This document shows positions 652 to 40,002 of a stretch of 45,558 nucleotides of DNA, piece by piece. Origin of the DNA: Verrucomicrobiaceae bacterium (GTDB taxonomy: Bacteria > Verrucomicrobiota > Verrucomicrobiia > Verrucomicrobiales > Verrucomicrobiaceae). The translations under genes were made by a program, and so were the position numbers. Where the stretch lies: NCBI GenBank assembly GCA_947471905.1, contig CANIZT010000002.1, positions 1 to 45,558 of the forward strand. Reading direction: 5' to 3'. The notes beneath the pieces are model-generated. The model searched no databases. It was not told the DNA's origin and was given only the letters and a program-made list of their open reading frames with translations. Each line of letters opens with the position of its first letter. Position 1 is the stretch's first letter.

Positions 652-2136
652 ATGCACACGCCGCTTGCTCCTCTTCACCGCCGCACTTTTATCCGCGGAT
701 TGGGCGCGATGATTTCACTGCCATTCCTTGAAGCGATGACGCCGCTCACGGCGGTCGCGGCTCAGGCGGGATCTAAGTCGCCGTTGCGCTTCATCGCGGT
801 CGGGTTGGAAGGCGGGATGTGGACGGGCGAGGATGGTTTGTTTCCCTGGAAGGACGGCGCAAGTGCGGAGCGCACGAAGGAGTGGGGGCGCAAGGGTGTG
901 CTCGCCGGCGGTGCGATGGCGGACACGGGGGCGAACTATCGGATGACAAGCACGCTGAAGCCGCTGGAGGCGTTTCGAAAGGATCTGCTCGTGCTCAGCG
1001 GGCTGCATCATCCGAATGACGACAAGCCAAACACGGTGGTGAATGCGCACGGTCAGGATTTGGGCACGCTGCTCACGGGCACGAATATTTCCGGCACGCC
1101 GGGCGTGGCCTTGAAGAACGGGATTTCCTTCGACCAATACCTCGCGGCGAAGATTGGCGAGCAGACGCGGTTCCCCTCGCTGGAGCTGGCGGTGGGTTCT
1201 TCGAGCTACAACACGAAGGAGGCGACGGGGCTCGGCTACATGGGCTTCCTCAGCTACGACGCGGATGGCTACGCGATGCCAGTCGAGGGCGATCCGGCTG
1301 CGGTGTTCGATCGTTTGTTCACCAGCGGCAGCGCACGAGACCAAGCCGCGCGCGACGCGCAGCGCCGGAGAAACAAGAGCGTGCTCGACGCCGCGCTAGA
1401 CGACATGAAGCGCATCACGGGCCGAGTCGCGGCAGACGACCGACGCAAGCTCGATGAATACTTCAACACGGTGCGCGAGCTGGAGAAACGCATCGAACGC
1501 GCGAAGCAGTGGGAAGGCATTCCCGTGAAGCTGCCGCCGGGTGCGAAGCGGCCTGAAGTCGCGAAGGGCGGCGCGTATGGCAATGACGGCTCGGGGCGCG
1601 TGGAGCAGATGCGCCTGATGCTCGATGTGCTGGCGCTCGCGATGCAGGCCGACGTGACGCGTGTGGCGTCGATCAAGCTCGGCGGTTACTACGGCGGTTT
1701 CGGCTTTCTTGGCTTTCCGGAAGACCCGCACGGCGTCTATGCGCACAATGGCGGCGATCCCAAGAAGATCGCGGGCGCGAAAGCCATCGACCGCATGCAC
1801 ATGGAGCAGCTCGCGTATCTGCTGGGCAAACTCTCGGAAGCGAAGGAAGACGGCGGCAGCGTGCTCGATAACTCGATCGTGCTCTGCGGCGCCGGTCTGA
1901 GCAACGGCCCGAATGGCCGCGCGAGCGCGAACGCAATCTCCTTCGATGCGCATGGCCAGCACAACCAGCCGCTGCTCATCGCGGGACGCGCCGGTGGCCG
2001 GCTCAAGACGGGCCAGCACGTCAATTACGATCACGGCACGCGGCTCTCGAATCTCTTCGTCACGACGCAGCAGCTCATGGGCGTGAACGAAACGAAGTTC
2101 GCAGACGCCACCGAGCCGCTGGCGGGACTTGTTTGA
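652..2136 (+). CDS. DUF1552 (HXXSHH family) Tat-exported protein, motif degenerate
   Basis: This 494-residue protein starts with a Tat signal (RRTFIRG near residue 10, then a hydrophobic stretch ending in an AVAAQA-like cleavage site), so it is probably exported folded. The body matches DUF1552: an early SGLHHPND segment, a central charged helix with RRKLDEYFNTVRELEKRIER, and a C-terminal block with a GNxMxxG-like loop. The family's signature HXXSHH is altered here. Residues 360-366 read HGVYAHN, so the serine is replaced by alanine and the last histidine by asparagine. The biochemical role of DUF1552 is unknown. The DUF1592 gene follows 22 bases after the stop, and pairing of the two families is the rule in this window. 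The ATG at 652 places the twin arginine at a normal distance from the N terminus. Confidence 0.9.
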   Translation: MHTPLAPLHRRTFIRGLGAMISLPFLEAMTPLTAVAAQAGSKSPLRFIAVGLEGGMWTGEDGLFPWKDGASAERTKEWGRKGVLAGGAMADTGANYRMTSTLKPLEAFRKDLLVLSGLHHPNDDKPNTVVNAHGQDLGTLLTGTNISGTPGVALKNGISFDQYLAAKIGEQTRFPSLELAVGSSSYNTKEATGLGYMGFLSYDADGYAMPVEGDPAAVFDRLFTSGSARDQAARDAQRRRNKSVLDAALDDMKRITGRVAADDRRKLDEYFNTVRELEKRIERAKQWEGIPVKLPPGAKRPEVAKGGAYGNDGSGRVEQMRLMLDVLALAMQADVTRVASIKLGGYYGGFGFLGFPEDPHGVYAHNGGDPKKIAGAKAIDRMHMEQLAYLLGKLSEAKEDGGSVLDNSIVLCGAGLSNGPNGRASANAISFDAHGQHNQPLLIAGRAGGRLKTGQHVNYDHGTRLSNLFVTTQQLMGVNETKFADATEPLAGLV

Positions 2137-22023: not shown

Positions 22024-23018
22024 ACCTACCCCGCATCTCCGTCACCATGGGTGACCCCGCTGGCATCGGCCCGGAAATCTGTCTGCATTTGCTGAACAAC
22101 GCTGAGATCATGAACCACTGCGTGCCGATCATCTTTGGCGATGCTGGCGTGTTGCGCAGGGTTGCCGAAAAACTCGTGCTGCCATTCACCGCGCCGATTT
22201 TGAACACGACGCAATGGCAGAGCCGATGCCACGAACTGCGCACTCCTGCCGTGCTCGATTTGCAGTGCATCGGCGCGGATGATTTCACGCCGGGAAAGGT
22301 GGACGCGCGATGTGGCGATGCGGCCTTTCGTTACGTTATCGCCAGCATTGAGGCGGGACTCGTCGGTGAAGTGGACGCAGTCTCGACCGCGCCTCTCAAC
22401 AAAGAAGCCATGCACGCTGCCGGGCATAAGTTCCCGGGCCACACCGAGATATTTGCGCAGCGCATGCAGGCGGATCGCTCTTGCATGATGCTCACGTCGG
22501 ATGAACTCACGTGCAGCTTTGTCACGGTGCATGTCGGTCTTTGTGACGTGCCTGGTTTGATCAATGTGCAGCGCGTGGTGGATGTCATCGAACTCACCAC
22601 CGATGCCATGCGACGCATCCGTGAGCGCGAGCCGAAGATCGTCGTCTGCGGCCTGAATCCCCATGCGGGCGAGAACGGCCTTTTTGGTCAGCGAGAGGAG
22701 GAGCGCTTCATCATTCCCGCCATCGAAGCCGCGCGTGCCAAGGGCATCCACATTGAAGGACCGCTGCCACCGGACACGGCCTTCCTCGCGTGGCGGCGCA
22801 AGCAAACTGACGCATTCATCTGCATGTATCATGATCAGGGCCACATCCCGCTGAAAGCGCTCGCCTTTGACTCCGCCATAAATACCACGCTTGGCCTGCC
22901 GGTGATTCGCACCAGCGTCGATCACGGCACCGCCTTTGACATCGCCTGGCAGGGCAAGGCTAACCCCAACAGTCTCTTTGAAGCCGTGCGATTGGCGGCA
23001 AGGATGTGCGCCAAATGA
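22020..23018 (+). CDS. pdxA2: PdxA2-type dehydrogenase (D-threonate/erythronate 4-phosphate)
   Basis: The ATG at 22020 overlaps the kdgT stop and gives 332 residues with the PdxA family hallmarks: [12 protein letters not shown] at the N terminus, GHTEIFA and HVGLCDVPG in the middle, [11 protein letters not shown], and HDQGHIPLK near the C terminus, the last of these carrying metal-binding histidines. Classical PdxA oxidises 4-hydroxythreonine-4-phosphate in vitamin B6 synthesis. The PdxA2 branch, adjacent to DUF1537 kinases, oxidises 4-phosphorylated D-threonate or D-erythronate and the product decarboxylates to dihydroxyacetone phosphate. The immediate overlap with a DUF1537 gene argues for the catabolic PdxA2 role. 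It is a cytoplasmic, NAD-dependent enzyme by family. Confidence 0.9.
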
Positions 23019-24052
23019 TCGCCATCATCGCCGACGACTTCTCCGGTGCCGCTGAACTCGCGGGCATCGCGGAGGCTCGCGGTTTCAAGGCTGAGGTGCA
23101 GACTCAGTTTGATCCCAACAGCGACGCGGAGGTCATCGCCGTGGACACGGACACGCGTCTGCGGACAGAAAGTGAAGCCGTGCAAATCGTCGGCGAAGTC
23201 ACTCGGCAGATCATCGCTGCAACGCCTGTGTGGATCTACAAAAAGACCGACTCGGTGCTGCGCGGTCACATTCGCGCCGAGATCGAGGCCATCCTCGATG
23301 CCACAGGCAAGCGAGATTGCCTATACATCCCCGCGAACCCCTCCAAAGGCCGCATCATCGATGGCGGACTCTATTTCGTAAACGGCGTTCCGCTGAATGA
23401 GACCGTTTTCGCGCACGATCCCGATTATCCATGTCACACCGCCGTCGTGCGCGAGTTGATCGGCGAATCCGAGAGGATTCGAGTGCCTGATGTGACCAGC
23501 ATGGATGATTTGAAGCACCTTATCGACGCCAGCACGCTGACCGCAGGTGCTGCGGACTTCTTCGCAAGTAGCATAGCCTTTCTAGGCTGTGGGCTTCGTG
23601 ACGTCACAAGTCATTCGGCACAGGCTAGAAAGCCTATGCTACTGCTCTGCGGCAGTCTCGCAGCGTGGGACAGCGGACGGGCAGATGAGATGAAGAAGCG
23701 TAGATTCGTCGTCCAGACCCTCGATCAACCCATCTCGCCCGCGATCTGGCAGCAAACTCAGAAAATCATGCTCGCCATCGGTCATCCACAAAGCGCTGAC
23801 ACAGCCATATTGACCGCAAGACTCATCGAAACGGCGCTGCCTCTCATTGCAGCGCAAAATGGTCTCCGCATCGGCCTCGAAGGTGGTGCCACTGCGATGG
23901 CCTTCATTCGGCGCATGGGCTGGACGCGCTTCGAGGTCATCCCAGAGGGCCACACTGGCGTTGGCACCTTGCGCCCGCCGGGCGGACCCATTCTGTGCGT
24001 GAAGCCGGGCAGCTACCCTTGGCCGGAAGGTTGTCTCGAATGTCAGGATTGA
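23015..24052 (+). CDS. dtnK: DUF1537 four-carbon acid-sugar kinase carrying an internal palindrome
   Basis: The ATG at 23015 overlaps the pdxA2 stop and gives 345 residues. The N-terminal substrate domain shows IADDFSGAAELAG at residues 5-17, VDTDTRLR and YKKTDSVLRGH. The C-terminal ATP-binding domain shows GLRIGLEGGATAMAFIRRMG, TGVGTLRPPGG and KPGSYPWPEG. DUF1537 proteins phosphorylate D-threonate or D-erythronate before PdxA2 acts, so this pair forms a two-step route to dihydroxyacetone phosphate. At 345 residues it is on the short side for the family. Residues about 185-210, at the join of the two domains, are encoded by a 77-bp inverted repeat (23567-23643) and look foreign to the fold. 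The frame stays open through it. Whether the substrate is threonate or erythronate cannot be told from sequence. Confidence 0.88.
   Translation: MIAIIADDFSGAAELAGIAEARGFKAEVQTQFDPNSDAEVIAVDTDTRLRTESEAVQIVGEVTRQIIAATPVWIYKKTDSVLRGHIRAEIEAILDATGKRDCLYIPANPSKGRIIDGGLYFVNGVPLNETVFAHDPDYPCHTAVVRELIGESERIRVPDVTSMDDLKHLIDASTLTAGAADFFASSIAFLGCGLRDVTSHSAQARKPMLLLCGSLAAWDSGRADEMKKRRFVVQTLDQPISPAIWQQTQKIMLAIGHPQSADTAILTARLIETALPLIAAQNGLRIGLEGGATAMAFIRRMGWTRFEVIPEGHTGVGTLRPPGGPILCVKPGSYPWPEGCLECQD
23567..23643. repeat. 77-bp palindromic element inside the DUF1537 kinase gene
   Basis: The left arm (23567-23591, starting AGTAGCATAGCC) and right arm (23619-23643) are inverted copies matching at 23 of 25 positions. 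Each arm can also fold alone: AGCCT-TTCT-AGGCT at 23575-23588 and AGGCT-AGAA-AGCCT at 23622-23635. The two mismatches between the arms are one C-G pair swapped for G-C within these small stems, so pairing inside each arm is kept. The centre holds a perfect GTGACGTCAC palindrome. This is REP-like or transposon-derived architecture. No second copy was found in this window. Confidence 0.85.
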
Positions 24053-36200: not shown

Positions 36201-38737
36201 CACCTCGAACGAAACACCTCACTCATCAAGCACTCGACCATCAGCGTCTTCAGGCCTAGGCCTTGTTTCTTCACCTTTTCTTGGAGTGCATCGATCACGA
36301 GGTCATCGTTGAGCTCCATGGTGCGGCCTGTGATGTAGGTGAGGAATTGACGGATGAAATGGCGGGTGAAGTGGTCTTCGCGGGTGGTGAGGATGATGTT
36401 TTTGAAGCTGGCGAAGTCGGTGTAGGCTTCACCGGAGGTGAATTCGCCGGTGGAGTCGATCTTCGGGGCGTCTTTGGCGTTTTTGGGCTTGGGGTAGGTT
36501 TTACGCCAGCGACCCACGGGGTCGAATACTTCGAGGCTGAAGCCAAGCGGGTCGATCTTGCGATGGCATTCGGCGCAGGCAGCATCGGCGCGATGTTTGG
36601 CGAGGCGGTCGCGGATGGTGGTGGCTCCGCTGACATCGGGATCAATGGCGGGCACGACATCGGGCGGCGGTGGCGGCGGGATGCCGAGGATGTTTTCGCT
36701 GACCCACACGCCGCGAGTCACTGGCGAGGTCTCGACGCCGTTCGCACTGACGGTAAGCACGGCGGCCATGCCGAGCAGTCCACCGCGATGCGTGTTGCCT
36801 TTGAGGCTGACTTTTTGGAAGCCGTCGGCAAGGCGCAGTTTGTCCTTCTCCGGCAGGTCGTAGAGTTTGGCGAGTTTCTTGTCCACGAAGGTGTGCTCGC
36901 AGTCGATGAACTGGGCAACGGAGCCGTTGTTCTTGAGAAGACCGCGGAAGAAGACTCGCGCCTCGGTCTTCATCGAGGTGGGCAGATCTTCGGCGTAGTA
37001 GGCGAGGTTCGCATCGCGTGGTGGAGGCATGCCGCCGAGATCGCGGAGGTTGAGCCAGCTATCGAGGAAGCCATTCACGAAGCCGCTGATGCGTTCGTCG
37101 GTGAGCATGCGCTCGATCTGCTTTTTCAGCTCGGCATCCTGCGTGAGCTTGCCCGCCTTCGCGGCGGCGAGCAGCGCTTCATCTGGCGGTGTGGCCCAGA
37201 GGGCAAAGGAAAGACGGGTGGCGAGGTCATAGGGCTTCAGGGCCTTCGCGGATTCGTCGGTGATCTCGCTCAAGTAGAGGAAACTCGGCGAGCAAAGGAT
37301 GAGCTTCACCGCATCGAGCGCGGCCTGTCGTGGCGTGGCTTTTTCGGCGAGGCGTTTGTCATAAAGCGCACGGATGGGCTGGCGGTCGGCGTCGTTCAGT
37401 GGACGACGATAGGCTTTCTCAGCGAAGGAATTCAGTTGATCGAGCGCATGATCCGCTTTGAAACCGTCTTTGCCGAACACGGCGATTTCCTCGGCGCTGC
37501 CACTCTTCTCGGGCACTGGGCCGTGGATTTTGATCTCGCTAATGCGGATATGCGGGAGCTTGCCTTCTTGTAGCAGGACCGTTCGGCTGACATCGGAGGA
37601 TTTGGTTTTGCCTTTGAAGTCGTCTTTGTAGCGCTTGTTGATGGTGATGACCGATGCGCGGGATTCATACGGTCCATTTGGGAAGATGAAGCGCGGTGTC
37701 TGACCTGCTTCGAGCCAGACGCGGAATTTCTGCCAAGTGGGTTTGTCATCCGGCAAGATGGCGCTAGCGAGTAGTGGCTCGATGGGCTGTGGATAATGGA
37801 TGTGGCCTTTGGTGATGTCGCCGGGCACTAGGCCGAGGATGAAGGGTTCGGAGAAATCGATGCCGAAGATTTTGGGATCGTAGTGCGTGTCGCGATGCAT
37901 GGCCTGCGCTTCGACTTCGATGTCGTAGAGTCCGGAGACAGGCACGCCTTCGAGGAAGTCCTCGATGTGGCCATAGCTGCCCTGTCGGGTGTCGGTGTTG
38001 GGCTGCTCGTAGATGTTGAGGTAGCGGTAGTTGAAGGCGGACTTGTGTGGGCCTTGCAGTTCCTCGTATTGCACGAAGTGGCCGTTGAAGCGCCAGTCCT
38101 TCGGCTCCATCGCCGGTTTGCCAAGACGCATCTCGACGAGGCGATTCGCGGACTGGAAGTATTGATCGACGAGGAAGCCCGAGGTCACGAGTGATTTGCC
38201 AATCGTGTCCATGTGCTCGCTCGTTTTCTCTTTCGGAAAATCTGCCGTGAGGCCCAGCGTATCCACACGGCGGCCAAAGAGCACAGCGAGTGTGTTCTCA
38301 TACTCGCGGCTGGAGAGTCGGCGCATGACGGTGCGGCTGCCCGTGCTCTGAAATTTGGCATGAGCGACAACGGTGCCATCGCGTAGCGCACGGATCATCG
38401 CGAGACGCTCATCAGACGATGGTTGGTCCGCCTTTTTTGGCGGCATCTCCTTCAGCGTGAGCTGGTCGATGATGTCGCGTGCCTCGATGAGATCCGGCAC
38501 AGATTTCAAAGGCAACGCGAACTTTTCAAACGAGCGATCGCCCTTCTGCACATCTGCGTCATGGCACTCCAGACAGTATTTGCCGAGGAACTGCTGCACG
38601 AGCTTCGGTGATTCGTCAGCGGCTAGAACCGGGCCGGCCAGGAAATGAAATACAGAGGCACCGAGCACCCAGAGAATTCTCTGTTTAGCTCTCTGTGTGC
38701 TCGGTGCCTCAGTGGTTAAAAAGAAAACTGACATCAC
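36200..38737 (-). CDS. DUF1592-type planctomycete cytochrome protein with repeat-encoded N terminus
   Basis: The 845-residue protein starts at 38737, overlapping the upstream DUF1552 stop (ATGA). CLECH is at residues 55-59, later than in the paralogs, because the N terminus is longer: residues 9-29 are encoded by a palindromic repeat (38652-38713) and supply half of the predicted signal peptide, whose core continues as FHFLAGPVLAADE. The usual domains follow: LKEMPPKKAD segment, DUF1587 (RRLSSREYENTLAVLFG), a beta-rich middle, DUF1595 at about 430-500, DUF1592 (DLATRLSFALWATPPDEALL), DUF1588 with PPPPPPDVVP and CAECH, and DUF1585 (FTRHFIRQFLTYITGRTM). It is the second gene of a two-gene minus-strand unit with its DUF1552 partner. 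Function is unknown. Confidence 0.92.
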   Translation of the reverse strand: MMSVFFLTTEAPSTQRAKQRILWVLGASVFHFLAGPVLAADESPKLVQQFLGKYCLECHDADVQKGDRSFEKFALPLKSVPDLIEARDIIDQLTLKEMPPKKADQPSSDERLAMIRALRDGTVVAHAKFQSTGSRTVMRRLSSREYENTLAVLFGRRVDTLGLTADFPKEKTSEHMDTIGKSLVTSGFLVDQYFQSANRLVEMRLGKPAMEPKDWRFNGHFVQYEELQGPHKSAFNYRYLNIYEQPNTDTRQGSYGHIEDFLEGVPVSGLYDIEVEAQAMHRDTHYDPKIFGIDFSEPFILGLVPGDITKGHIHYPQPIEPLLASAILPDDKPTWQKFRVWLEAGQTPRFIFPNGPYESRASVITINKRYKDDFKGKTKSSDVSRTVLLQEGKLPHIRISEIKIHGPVPEKSGSAEEIAVFGKDGFKADHALDQLNSFAEKAYRRPLNDADRQPIRALYDKRLAEKATPRQAALDAVKLILCSPSFLYLSEITDESAKALKPYDLATRLSFALWATPPDEALLAAAKAGKLTQDAELKKQIERMLTDERISGFVNGFLDSWLNLRDLGGMPPPRDANLAYYAEDLPTSMKTEARVFFRGLLKNNGSVAQFIDCEHTFVDKKLAKLYDLPEKDKLRLADGFQKVSLKGNTHRGGLLGMAAVLTVSANGVETSPVTRGVWVSENILGIPPPPPPDVVPAIDPDVSGATTIRDRLAKHRADAACAECHRKIDPLGFSLEVFDPVGRWRKTYPKPKNAKDAPKIDSTGEFTSGEAYTDFASFKNIILTTREDHFTRHFIRQFLTYITGRTMELNDDLVIDALQEKVKKQGLGLKTLMVECLMSEVFRSR
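38652..38713. repeat. Palindromic repeat encoding part of a DUF1592 signal peptide
   Basis: The left arm 38652-38674 (containing GAGGCACCGAGCACCCAGAG) and right arm 38691-38713 are inverted copies matching at 21 of 23 positions. A perfect AGAGAATTCTCT palindrome lies at 38671-38682, between and overlapping them. The arms have the alternating GAG/CAC/AGAG character of short repeats that I recall being scattered through many environmental bacterial genomes, so copies elsewhere in this genome are likely. It is read through in frame as codons 9-29 of the minus-strand DUF1592 gene. Confidence 0.8.
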
Positions 38738-40002
38738 GCAAACCGTCCTGTGCTGCTACCAAAGGAGTCCGTCTCCACACCCATCTTCTGCGCGATATCG
38801 ACGAAGAGATTGCACAGCGGCACCTTGTTGATGCCTTCACGCGGCACTTCGCGGAATTCACCGTGCTTGTAGCCGCCACCGGCGAGGAGGATGGGCAGGT
38901 CGGAGTTCTTGTGAGAATTGCCATCGCCCATGCCACTGCCAAAGAGCACGGTGGTGGAGTCGAGCAGCGTGCGGTCGCCGTCATTCATCTTCGCGAGACG
39001 AGCCACGAATTTGCCGAAGTGCTCGATCTGATATTTCTCCAGCGTGATGAGGTTCTCGATGGCCTCTGCGTCGTTGCCGTGATGCGAGAGACCGTGCCAA
39101 TCCTTTTTGATGCCAAGATGCTGCGGCATGAAGTCGCCGCCGATTTCCAGCGTGGCAATGCGCGTGCTGTCCGACTGCAAAGCGAGCGCGATCATTTCAT
39201 AGAGCAGCGGCAAATCTTCGACGGCATTGCGATTCGCAGGCTTGTCGAAGGGCGCTTTCGGCTTCGGTTGGTTCGTCCAGCGCTGACGCAGCTCTAGGCG
39301 CTTCTCCACATCACGCACCGAGGTCAGGTATTCGTCGAGCTTGGCCTTATCCTCCTTGTTCACCTGCTTCGAGAGGCGATTCGCCTCCTCCAACACGGAA
39401 TCGAGGATGGATGCCTGCACTTGGTTCTCTTGCATGCGACGCGTCTGCCGCTCCTTCGAGTCGGTCACGAAGAGTTTCTCGAACAACTCCGCCGGATTCG
39501 TCACCGGTGGCACACGCACGCCCGACTTTGTCCAAGCGATCTGACAGCCACCGTGAATGCCGCCTTCCGAACCGACCGTGAGCGATGGGAAACGCGTCTC
39601 AAAGCCCACTTCGTCCGCGAGATACTGATCGATGGTCACATTGCCATCCGGCCGATTTTGAGCCTCAGAGTTCAGCACACCAGAGAGGAATGAATGCACC
39701 GCGAAGTGCCCGCCCTTCACGCCATGGTCGAGTCCACGCAAAACCGTCATTTTATCGCGGAGGTCCCACAGCGGCTCCAGCAGCGTCGTTTTCTCGTAAT
39801 TGCGGCCTTGAGTCGTGGGGAAGAGGCTCTTTGTCTGGTAGCCGAGCAGATTACCGATTGCTACAAAGCGCTTGGCACCCATGCCCGCACCCTTTGCCGC
39901 CTGCACCGAGCCACCGACAGCACCTTTGGCCATAAGCGAGGACATACCCGGCAACGCCAGCGTGGTGCCAAGGGACGAAAGTAGAAAGCGACGACGATTC
40001 AT
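38734..40002 (-). CDS. DUF1552 (HXXSHH family) Tat-exported protein
   Basis: The ATG at 40002 gives 422 residues beginning MNRRRFLLSSLGTTLALPG, a compact Tat signal. An open frame reaching 40146 adds 48 residues that would mask the signal. The family landmarks are LRGLDHGVKGGHFAVHSFLS, a helix with DKAKLDEYLTSVRDVEKRLE, the intact signature HGLSHH at residues 303-308 followed by GNDAEAIENL, and FGSGMGDGNSHKNSDLPILL near the C terminus. Its stop overlaps the DUF1592 start. This is the cleanest isolated DUF1552-DUF1592 unit in the window: two genes, divergent from the next operon, with their own promoter region. Confidence 0.93.
   Translation of the reverse strand: MNRRRFLLSSLGTTLALPGMSSLMAKGAVGGSVQAAKGAGMGAKRFVAIGNLLGYQTKSLFPTTQGRNYEKTTLLEPLWDLRDKMTVLRGLDHGVKGGHFAVHSFLSGVLNSEAQNRPDGNVTIDQYLADEVGFETRFPSLTVGSEGGIHGGCQIAWTKSGVRVPPVTNPAELFEKLFVTDSKERQTRRMQENQVQASILDSVLEEANRLSKQVNKEDKAKLDEYLTSVRDVEKRLELRQRWTNQPKPKAPFDKPANRNAVEDLPLLYEMIALALQSDSTRIATLEIGGDFMPQHLGIKKDWHGLSHHGNDAEAIENLITLEKYQIEHFGKFVARLAKMNDGDRTLLDSTTVLFGSGMGDGNSHKNSDLPILLAGGGYKHGEFREVPREGINKVPLCNLFVDIAQKMGVETDSFGSSTGRFA

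Follow-up and report, generated by a model that had tools for sequence, protein, structure and literature searches.

A probable intragenic REPIN in the linker of a DUF1537-type kinase gene of a Verrucomicrobiaceae bacterium, and REP-type repeats in one sbcC loop of related genomes

Introduction

Within the 45,558 nt of DNA analysed here (the window; contig CANIZT010000002.1 of assembly GCA_947471905.1 from a Verrucomicrobiaceae bacterium), a long inverted repeat is located inside a gene for a sugar-acid kinase and is read through in frame. This raises the question of what the palindrome is and how it came to be part of a protein. A sequence-only reading had proposed an inserted element of 77 bp, comparable either to the REP/BIME units moved by RAYT transposases or to the palindromic elements of Rickettsia. 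Intragenic REPINs represent a natural experiment on mobile hairpins entering coding sequence.

Results

The two arms of the inverted repeat (positions 23567-23591 and 23619-23643) comprise 25 nt each, are separated by 27 nt and are 92% complementary, which agrees with the 23 of 25 matching positions described before; by chance, no match to an inverted repeat like 23567-23643 is expected within the window. On its own strand, in the 5' to 3' direction, each arm consists of GTAG and CATAG(C/G)C-TTTCTA-G(G/C)CTGTG, i.e. a 7-bp stem with the loop TTTCTA, and the stems of the two arms differ in a single flipped C-G pair, as had also been noticed. The conserved unit, reaching from GTAG to CTAC, is a head-to-head dimer with GTAG on the outside (positions 23568-23642, plus strand). 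Its 75 bp correspond to 25 codons; the arms are thus located where they had been reported, but the extent of 77 bp counts one flanking base on each side. The left REP (23568..23591, plus strand; GTAG tail and hairpin, GTAGCATAGCCTTTCTAGGCTGTG) and the right REP (23619..23642, minus strand; GTAGCATAGGCTTTCTAGCCTGTG on that strand) belong to one repeat family, designated family A. The spacer between them (23592..23618) is not common to the other family-A copies of the same genome. The isolated REPIN folds into one long hairpin (z-scores of -6.75 as RNA and -7.36 as DNA). A search of the window against Rfam found nothing.

The host gene (23006-24052, plus strand) encodes a DUF1537-type sugar-acid kinase with an SBD_N domain (PF07005) at residues 5-164, and it is related to solved chains such as 4xfm, which we take to be DUF1537-type proteins. 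As proposed, the REPIN lies in frame within this ORF; it encodes residues 188-212 (linker ..SSIAFLGCGLRDVTSHSAQARKPML..) ahead of the GSL motif. In the AlphaFold model of the kinase (mean pLDDT 89.9), a helix (residues 183-192) and a strand (residues 211-215) are connected by a stretch of low confidence (block 201-210, mean pLDDT 61). Since residues 188-212 span the end of the helix, this loop and the first residues of the strand, the position that had been assigned to the element between the two kinase domains is right. A pdxA-like ORF ends at 23018 and shares ATGA (23015-23018) with the kinase gene, overlapping one of its ATGs, as in coupled genes.

A pattern search of the own genome (4.49 Mb in 465 contigs; assembly 78% complete) revealed eight family-A arms at ≤3 mismatches, and none with the reversed control. 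Inverted pairs were found on contigs C2 and C75, and a looser pattern completed pairs on C131, C153 and C462. The incomplete genome therefore contains at least five family-A pairs, i.e. at least four (C75, C131, C153 and C462) besides the window element, which is a low copy number in comparison to classical REPs. Family A was present in 18 of the 39 genomes of the genus that were searched, the reversed control being zero throughout, and 20 arms were listed for the relative G031. When a genome collection was scanned for exact matches, 51 family-A stretches were obtained, from MAGs named Verrucomicrobia, Verrucomicrobiales, Verrucomicrobiaceae, Prosthecobacter or Akkermansia. Together with the own copies these gave 63 elements, namely 56 dimers, 55 of them head to head, and seven singles. 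GTAG stands beside an imperfect palindrome in both arms of the window element and in most family-A copies, and most REPINs looked at are located outside genes. The compensatory base-pair swaps, which had been read from the two arms, recur throughout the family: 17 two-sided changes to a standard pair were counted, whereas 1000 shuffles gave 2.35 on average and never more than 8; this comparison ignores the relatedness of the copies.

Some of the other copies also touch coding sequences. In one dimer of the own genome (L012:1022), GTAG seems, as judged by eye, to supply the TAG stop codon of the preceding ORF. More in-frame family-A copies or remnants occur in large ORFs (L104, L078 and L126), with coding-like composition on both sides. 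A low-scoring DUF1537 match in G004 (contig C235) turned out to be another family-A REPIN and not an ortholog of the kinase.

In three relatives (G004, G037 and G031), a RAYT gene has family-A repeats to its left and right. On contig C12 of G031, family-A REPs at 38565, 38628 and 39404 surround a RAYT match (38741-39388) that is interrupted by one internal stop. The RAYT protein of G004 matches PF01797, and its NF047646 score is 67.5 versus a cut-off of 80. In addition, repeats of a second family (family B, GTAGTTTGGGCTTTAGCCCAAA) adjoin RAYT matches in G016 and G028, and repeats resembling a further family (family E, see below) adjoin RAYT at the loci L157 and L149, so that several REP families of Verrucomicrobiaceae with adjoining RAYTs are at hand. 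Because the repeats flank RAYT genes in the relatives, family A is a GTAG-REP/REPIN family whose cognate RAYTs occur in the genus, and the comparison to a REP/BIME unit with its RAYT is supported. A search for a RAYT gene had been suggested as a check. RAYTs do exist, but the sole Y1 transposase match found there, a RAYT according to NCBIfam NF047646 (83.6 bits, cut-off 80), has neither family-A nor family-B repeats in the 6 kb read around it, in an assembly that is 78% complete. Orthologs of this RAYT show 90% identity in G032 and 82% in G011. As a conserved ortholog in a repeat-free 6 kb, it is not supported as the cognate enzyme.

Orthologs of the kinase were obtained from seven of the 39 genomes of the genus first searched, the own genome (G000) included and weak matches excluded. 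The ortholog of G032 (84% identity) possesses the same REPIN with decayed arms and a homologous spacer. In G053, which is placed in another genus, the same REPIN is more decayed and its spacer more distantly homologous. Since decayed copies stand at the same site in G032 and G053, the family-A insertion predates the common ancestor of the three kinase genes and is old and vertically kept. In agreement with the earlier expectation for close relatives, the kinase orthologs outside the G000/G032/G053 clade do not contain the family-A element.

The linker from FFx to LLxCGS comprises 24 residues in the own genome, G032 and G053. Among orthologs without a recognisable REP it has 18 residues in G004, G031, G019 and G135 and 24 in G007. 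The insertion of about 26 residues that had been proposed is therefore in frame, with 25 codons, but the linker of 24 residues falls within the 18-24 of the REP-free orthologs; the REPIN stands in place of linker sequence rather than adding its full length. A clean empty site was not found among the orthologs. Removal of the 75 bp leaves FFA-M-LCGS, a linker shorter than in any ortholog seen, and a simple precise insertion of 75 bp was therefore rejected. From this comparison we infer that either the REPIN was exchanged for a piece of the linker or the linker became shorter after the insertion. At three sites of the arms, G032 and G053 share a non-consensus base where the own genome has the family-A consensus, a thin hint that the arms of the own kinase gene may have been rewritten to the consensus.

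The same linker contains a family-B dimer of 57 bp in G016 as well as in G080 and G126, which belong to another family of the order (loci L177, L178 and L041). In the kinase gene tree, whose backbone is unresolved, genes with family A and genes with family B are not intermixed. In G016, a RAYT match flanked by family B is located about 10 kb from the DUF1537 kinase gene.

Following the other in-frame REP copies led to orthologs of sbcC (loci L193-L222, L097, L098 and L223-L227). The NCBIfam SbcC models were the best matches to these proteins but scored below their cut-offs; the Pfam model SbcC_Walker_B scored above its cut-off. E. coli SbcCD cuts DNA hairpins, which makes sbcC a notable host gene for such repeats. 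Inverted repeats were detected in 18 of 32 orthologs, and all 18 found in these ORFs (91 kb) fall within a single stretch of 35 residues, a loop 82-117 residues past the CPLCG motif. With five further genomes the loop is occupied in 20 of 37 orthologs, which come from different Prosthecobacter-type genomes, in one of them by a single short palindrome. When the whole locus of G028 was considered, a second inverted repeat, not listed in the scan of the 32 ORFs, was found where the open frame terminates; as read, this place is beyond the conserved gene body. At L194 and L202, a second family-C dimer (near 983-1042, plus strand of the locus) is found some 1.1 kb away from the loop, where the open frame of sbcC ends or close to that point.

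The repeats in the sbcC loop belong to at least five sequence families: family A, family C (GTAGCACGAGTTTTCTAACTCGT), family D (TGGAGTGGCGACGA-TCGTCGCC, without a clear GTAG), family E (GTAG-CAGTTGC..GCAACTG) and family F (GTAGGCGCAGTCGCCAGA). Among the stretches examined, families A, C and E also occur outside sbcC, family F is represented there by single arm-like matches, and family D was seen in sbcC only. On the sbcC tree the five families require at least nine changes, and A, C, D and E each do not form one group. The sbcC flanks of the close relatives G016 and G028 are almost the same, and yet the former genome carries family E and the latter family C, with different adjacent loop bases. 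The left junction coincides between family A (G021 and G035) and family C (G028 and G047); junctions between other families differ by some bases. As judged by eye, the family-E cassettes of G016 and G031 seem to be more similar than the genes that surround them. The loop is also variable in sequence in orthologs without REPs. The pattern could be due to tolerance of one loop or to turnover in place, and REP-type elements appear to occupy the same intragenic places repeatedly, namely the kinase linker and one loop of sbcC.

Discussion

The window element is, with high confidence, an intragenic REPIN, i.e. a head-to-head pair of GTAG REPs that was presumably moved in trans by a RAYT and that entered the kinase linker before the genes of the own genome, G032 and G053 split. 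The dimer structure of family A, its dispersal, its linkage to RAYT genes in relatives, the covariation in its stems, the old insertion common to the three genes and the reading frame carry this conclusion. The enzyme mobilising such a non-autonomous element would have been a REP-associated tyrosine (HUH, Y1) transposase, with a single-stranded hairpin as the probable intermediate. In the lineage that led to the three kinase genes, it presumably displaced part of the former inter-domain linker, in the sole frame that the left arm leaves open, and since then it would have served as an ordinary linker peptide, presumably tolerated without a change in function. An ordinary linker or chance palindrome without any mobile origin can practically be dismissed. 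It would fit nothing but the near-normal protein lengths, and exact copies elsewhere in the genome and the genus, with zero control matches, as well as the z-scores of the fold, contradict it. It is also improbable that selection on the mRNA or the protein of the kinase gene maintains the hairpin. The arms of the own genome do match the family consensus perfectly where those of G032 and G053 are decayed, and the three sites mentioned above point in the same direction, but the relatives keep the gene despite much lost pairing; moreover, the number of such sites is small, and the same pattern would arise if the arms had been copied from another member of the family.

Two further explanations concern the repeated use of the same sites and are both compatible with the identity as a REPIN. 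We lean slightly towards a filter by permissive sites, in which REPINs land everywhere without targeting and survive in genes only in frame and in tolerant loops. The kinase site is a protein linker, the sbcC loop varies even where no REP is present, and most of the REPINs looked at are not inside genes. This explanation would need just one tolerant place in the whole of sbcC, since 18 of 18 inverted repeats share one stretch of 35 residues, and the scatter of the families on the tree speaks against it too. Turnover in place is a serious but somewhat doubtful candidate: a resident REPIN would mark the site and later be replaced by another family, either through a RAYT that acts on the GTAG ends of the old element or through recombination of loop cassettes between species. 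The flanks of G016 and G028, the common left junction of families A and C and the similar family-E cassettes of G016 and G031 fit this process, but the junctions of other families are offset, several independent insertions would explain the data equally well, and no intermediate was seen. That the DUF1537 linker and above all the sbcC loop are standing docking sites, at which one REPIN family succeeds another, either because a RAYT acts on the resident element or because cassettes are exchanged, is rather unlikely; the element in sbcC could then even tune a hairpin-attacking enzyme. As the sbcC and DUF1537-linker series each show a single site in many different states within one genus, targeting, replacement and tolerance become separable by experiment.

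With regard to known systems, the palindromic elements of Rickettsia resemble the window REPIN in being palindromic and in frame inside genes and in encoding a short peptide. They occur in a different phylum, and the likeness considered is one of description; the window element is taken to be a GTAG REP/REPIN rather than one of them. Closer counterparts are REPINs and RAYTs, for which the doublet as the unit, conserved ends and a variable spacer (Bertels and Rainey 2011, PMC3116915) and copies of the repeat on either side of the RAYT gene (Nunvar et al. 2010, PMC2817692; PMC3116915) were described. Family A shares all these features. According to the passages used here, the REPINs of those studies are mainly extragenic, in Pseudomonas and other bacteria, whereas the window element is coding.

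The GTAG REP families of Di Nocera et al. 2013 (PMC3733652) are likewise close. In the passages of that paper considered here, these repeats have a short stem with alternative complementary stem bases and form head-to-head dimers whose members mostly lie 20-100 bp apart; dimers inside genes code for 20-30 residues, often in repair genes, intragenic repeats are most numerous in the verrucomicrobium Opitutus terrae, and different REPs occupy about the same site of recB in two Xanthomonas species. Family A agrees in the GTAG tail, the short stem with complementary variants, the head-to-head arrangement and the intragenic coding dimers. Opitutus terrae is the sole member of the Verrucomicrobia named in these passages, which mention neither the kinase linker nor the sbcC loop, and a limited search of the open-access literature found nothing on REPs of Prosthecobacter or on sbcC loops. 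Intragenic REP dimers and the idea of a shared site, as in recB of Xanthomonas, are thus already known from that paper. New here are family A, which was compared with its 24 families by description only and may be one of them, the host of this family, and the extent of same-site turnover, whose scale in sbcC is the part that a specialist would look at.
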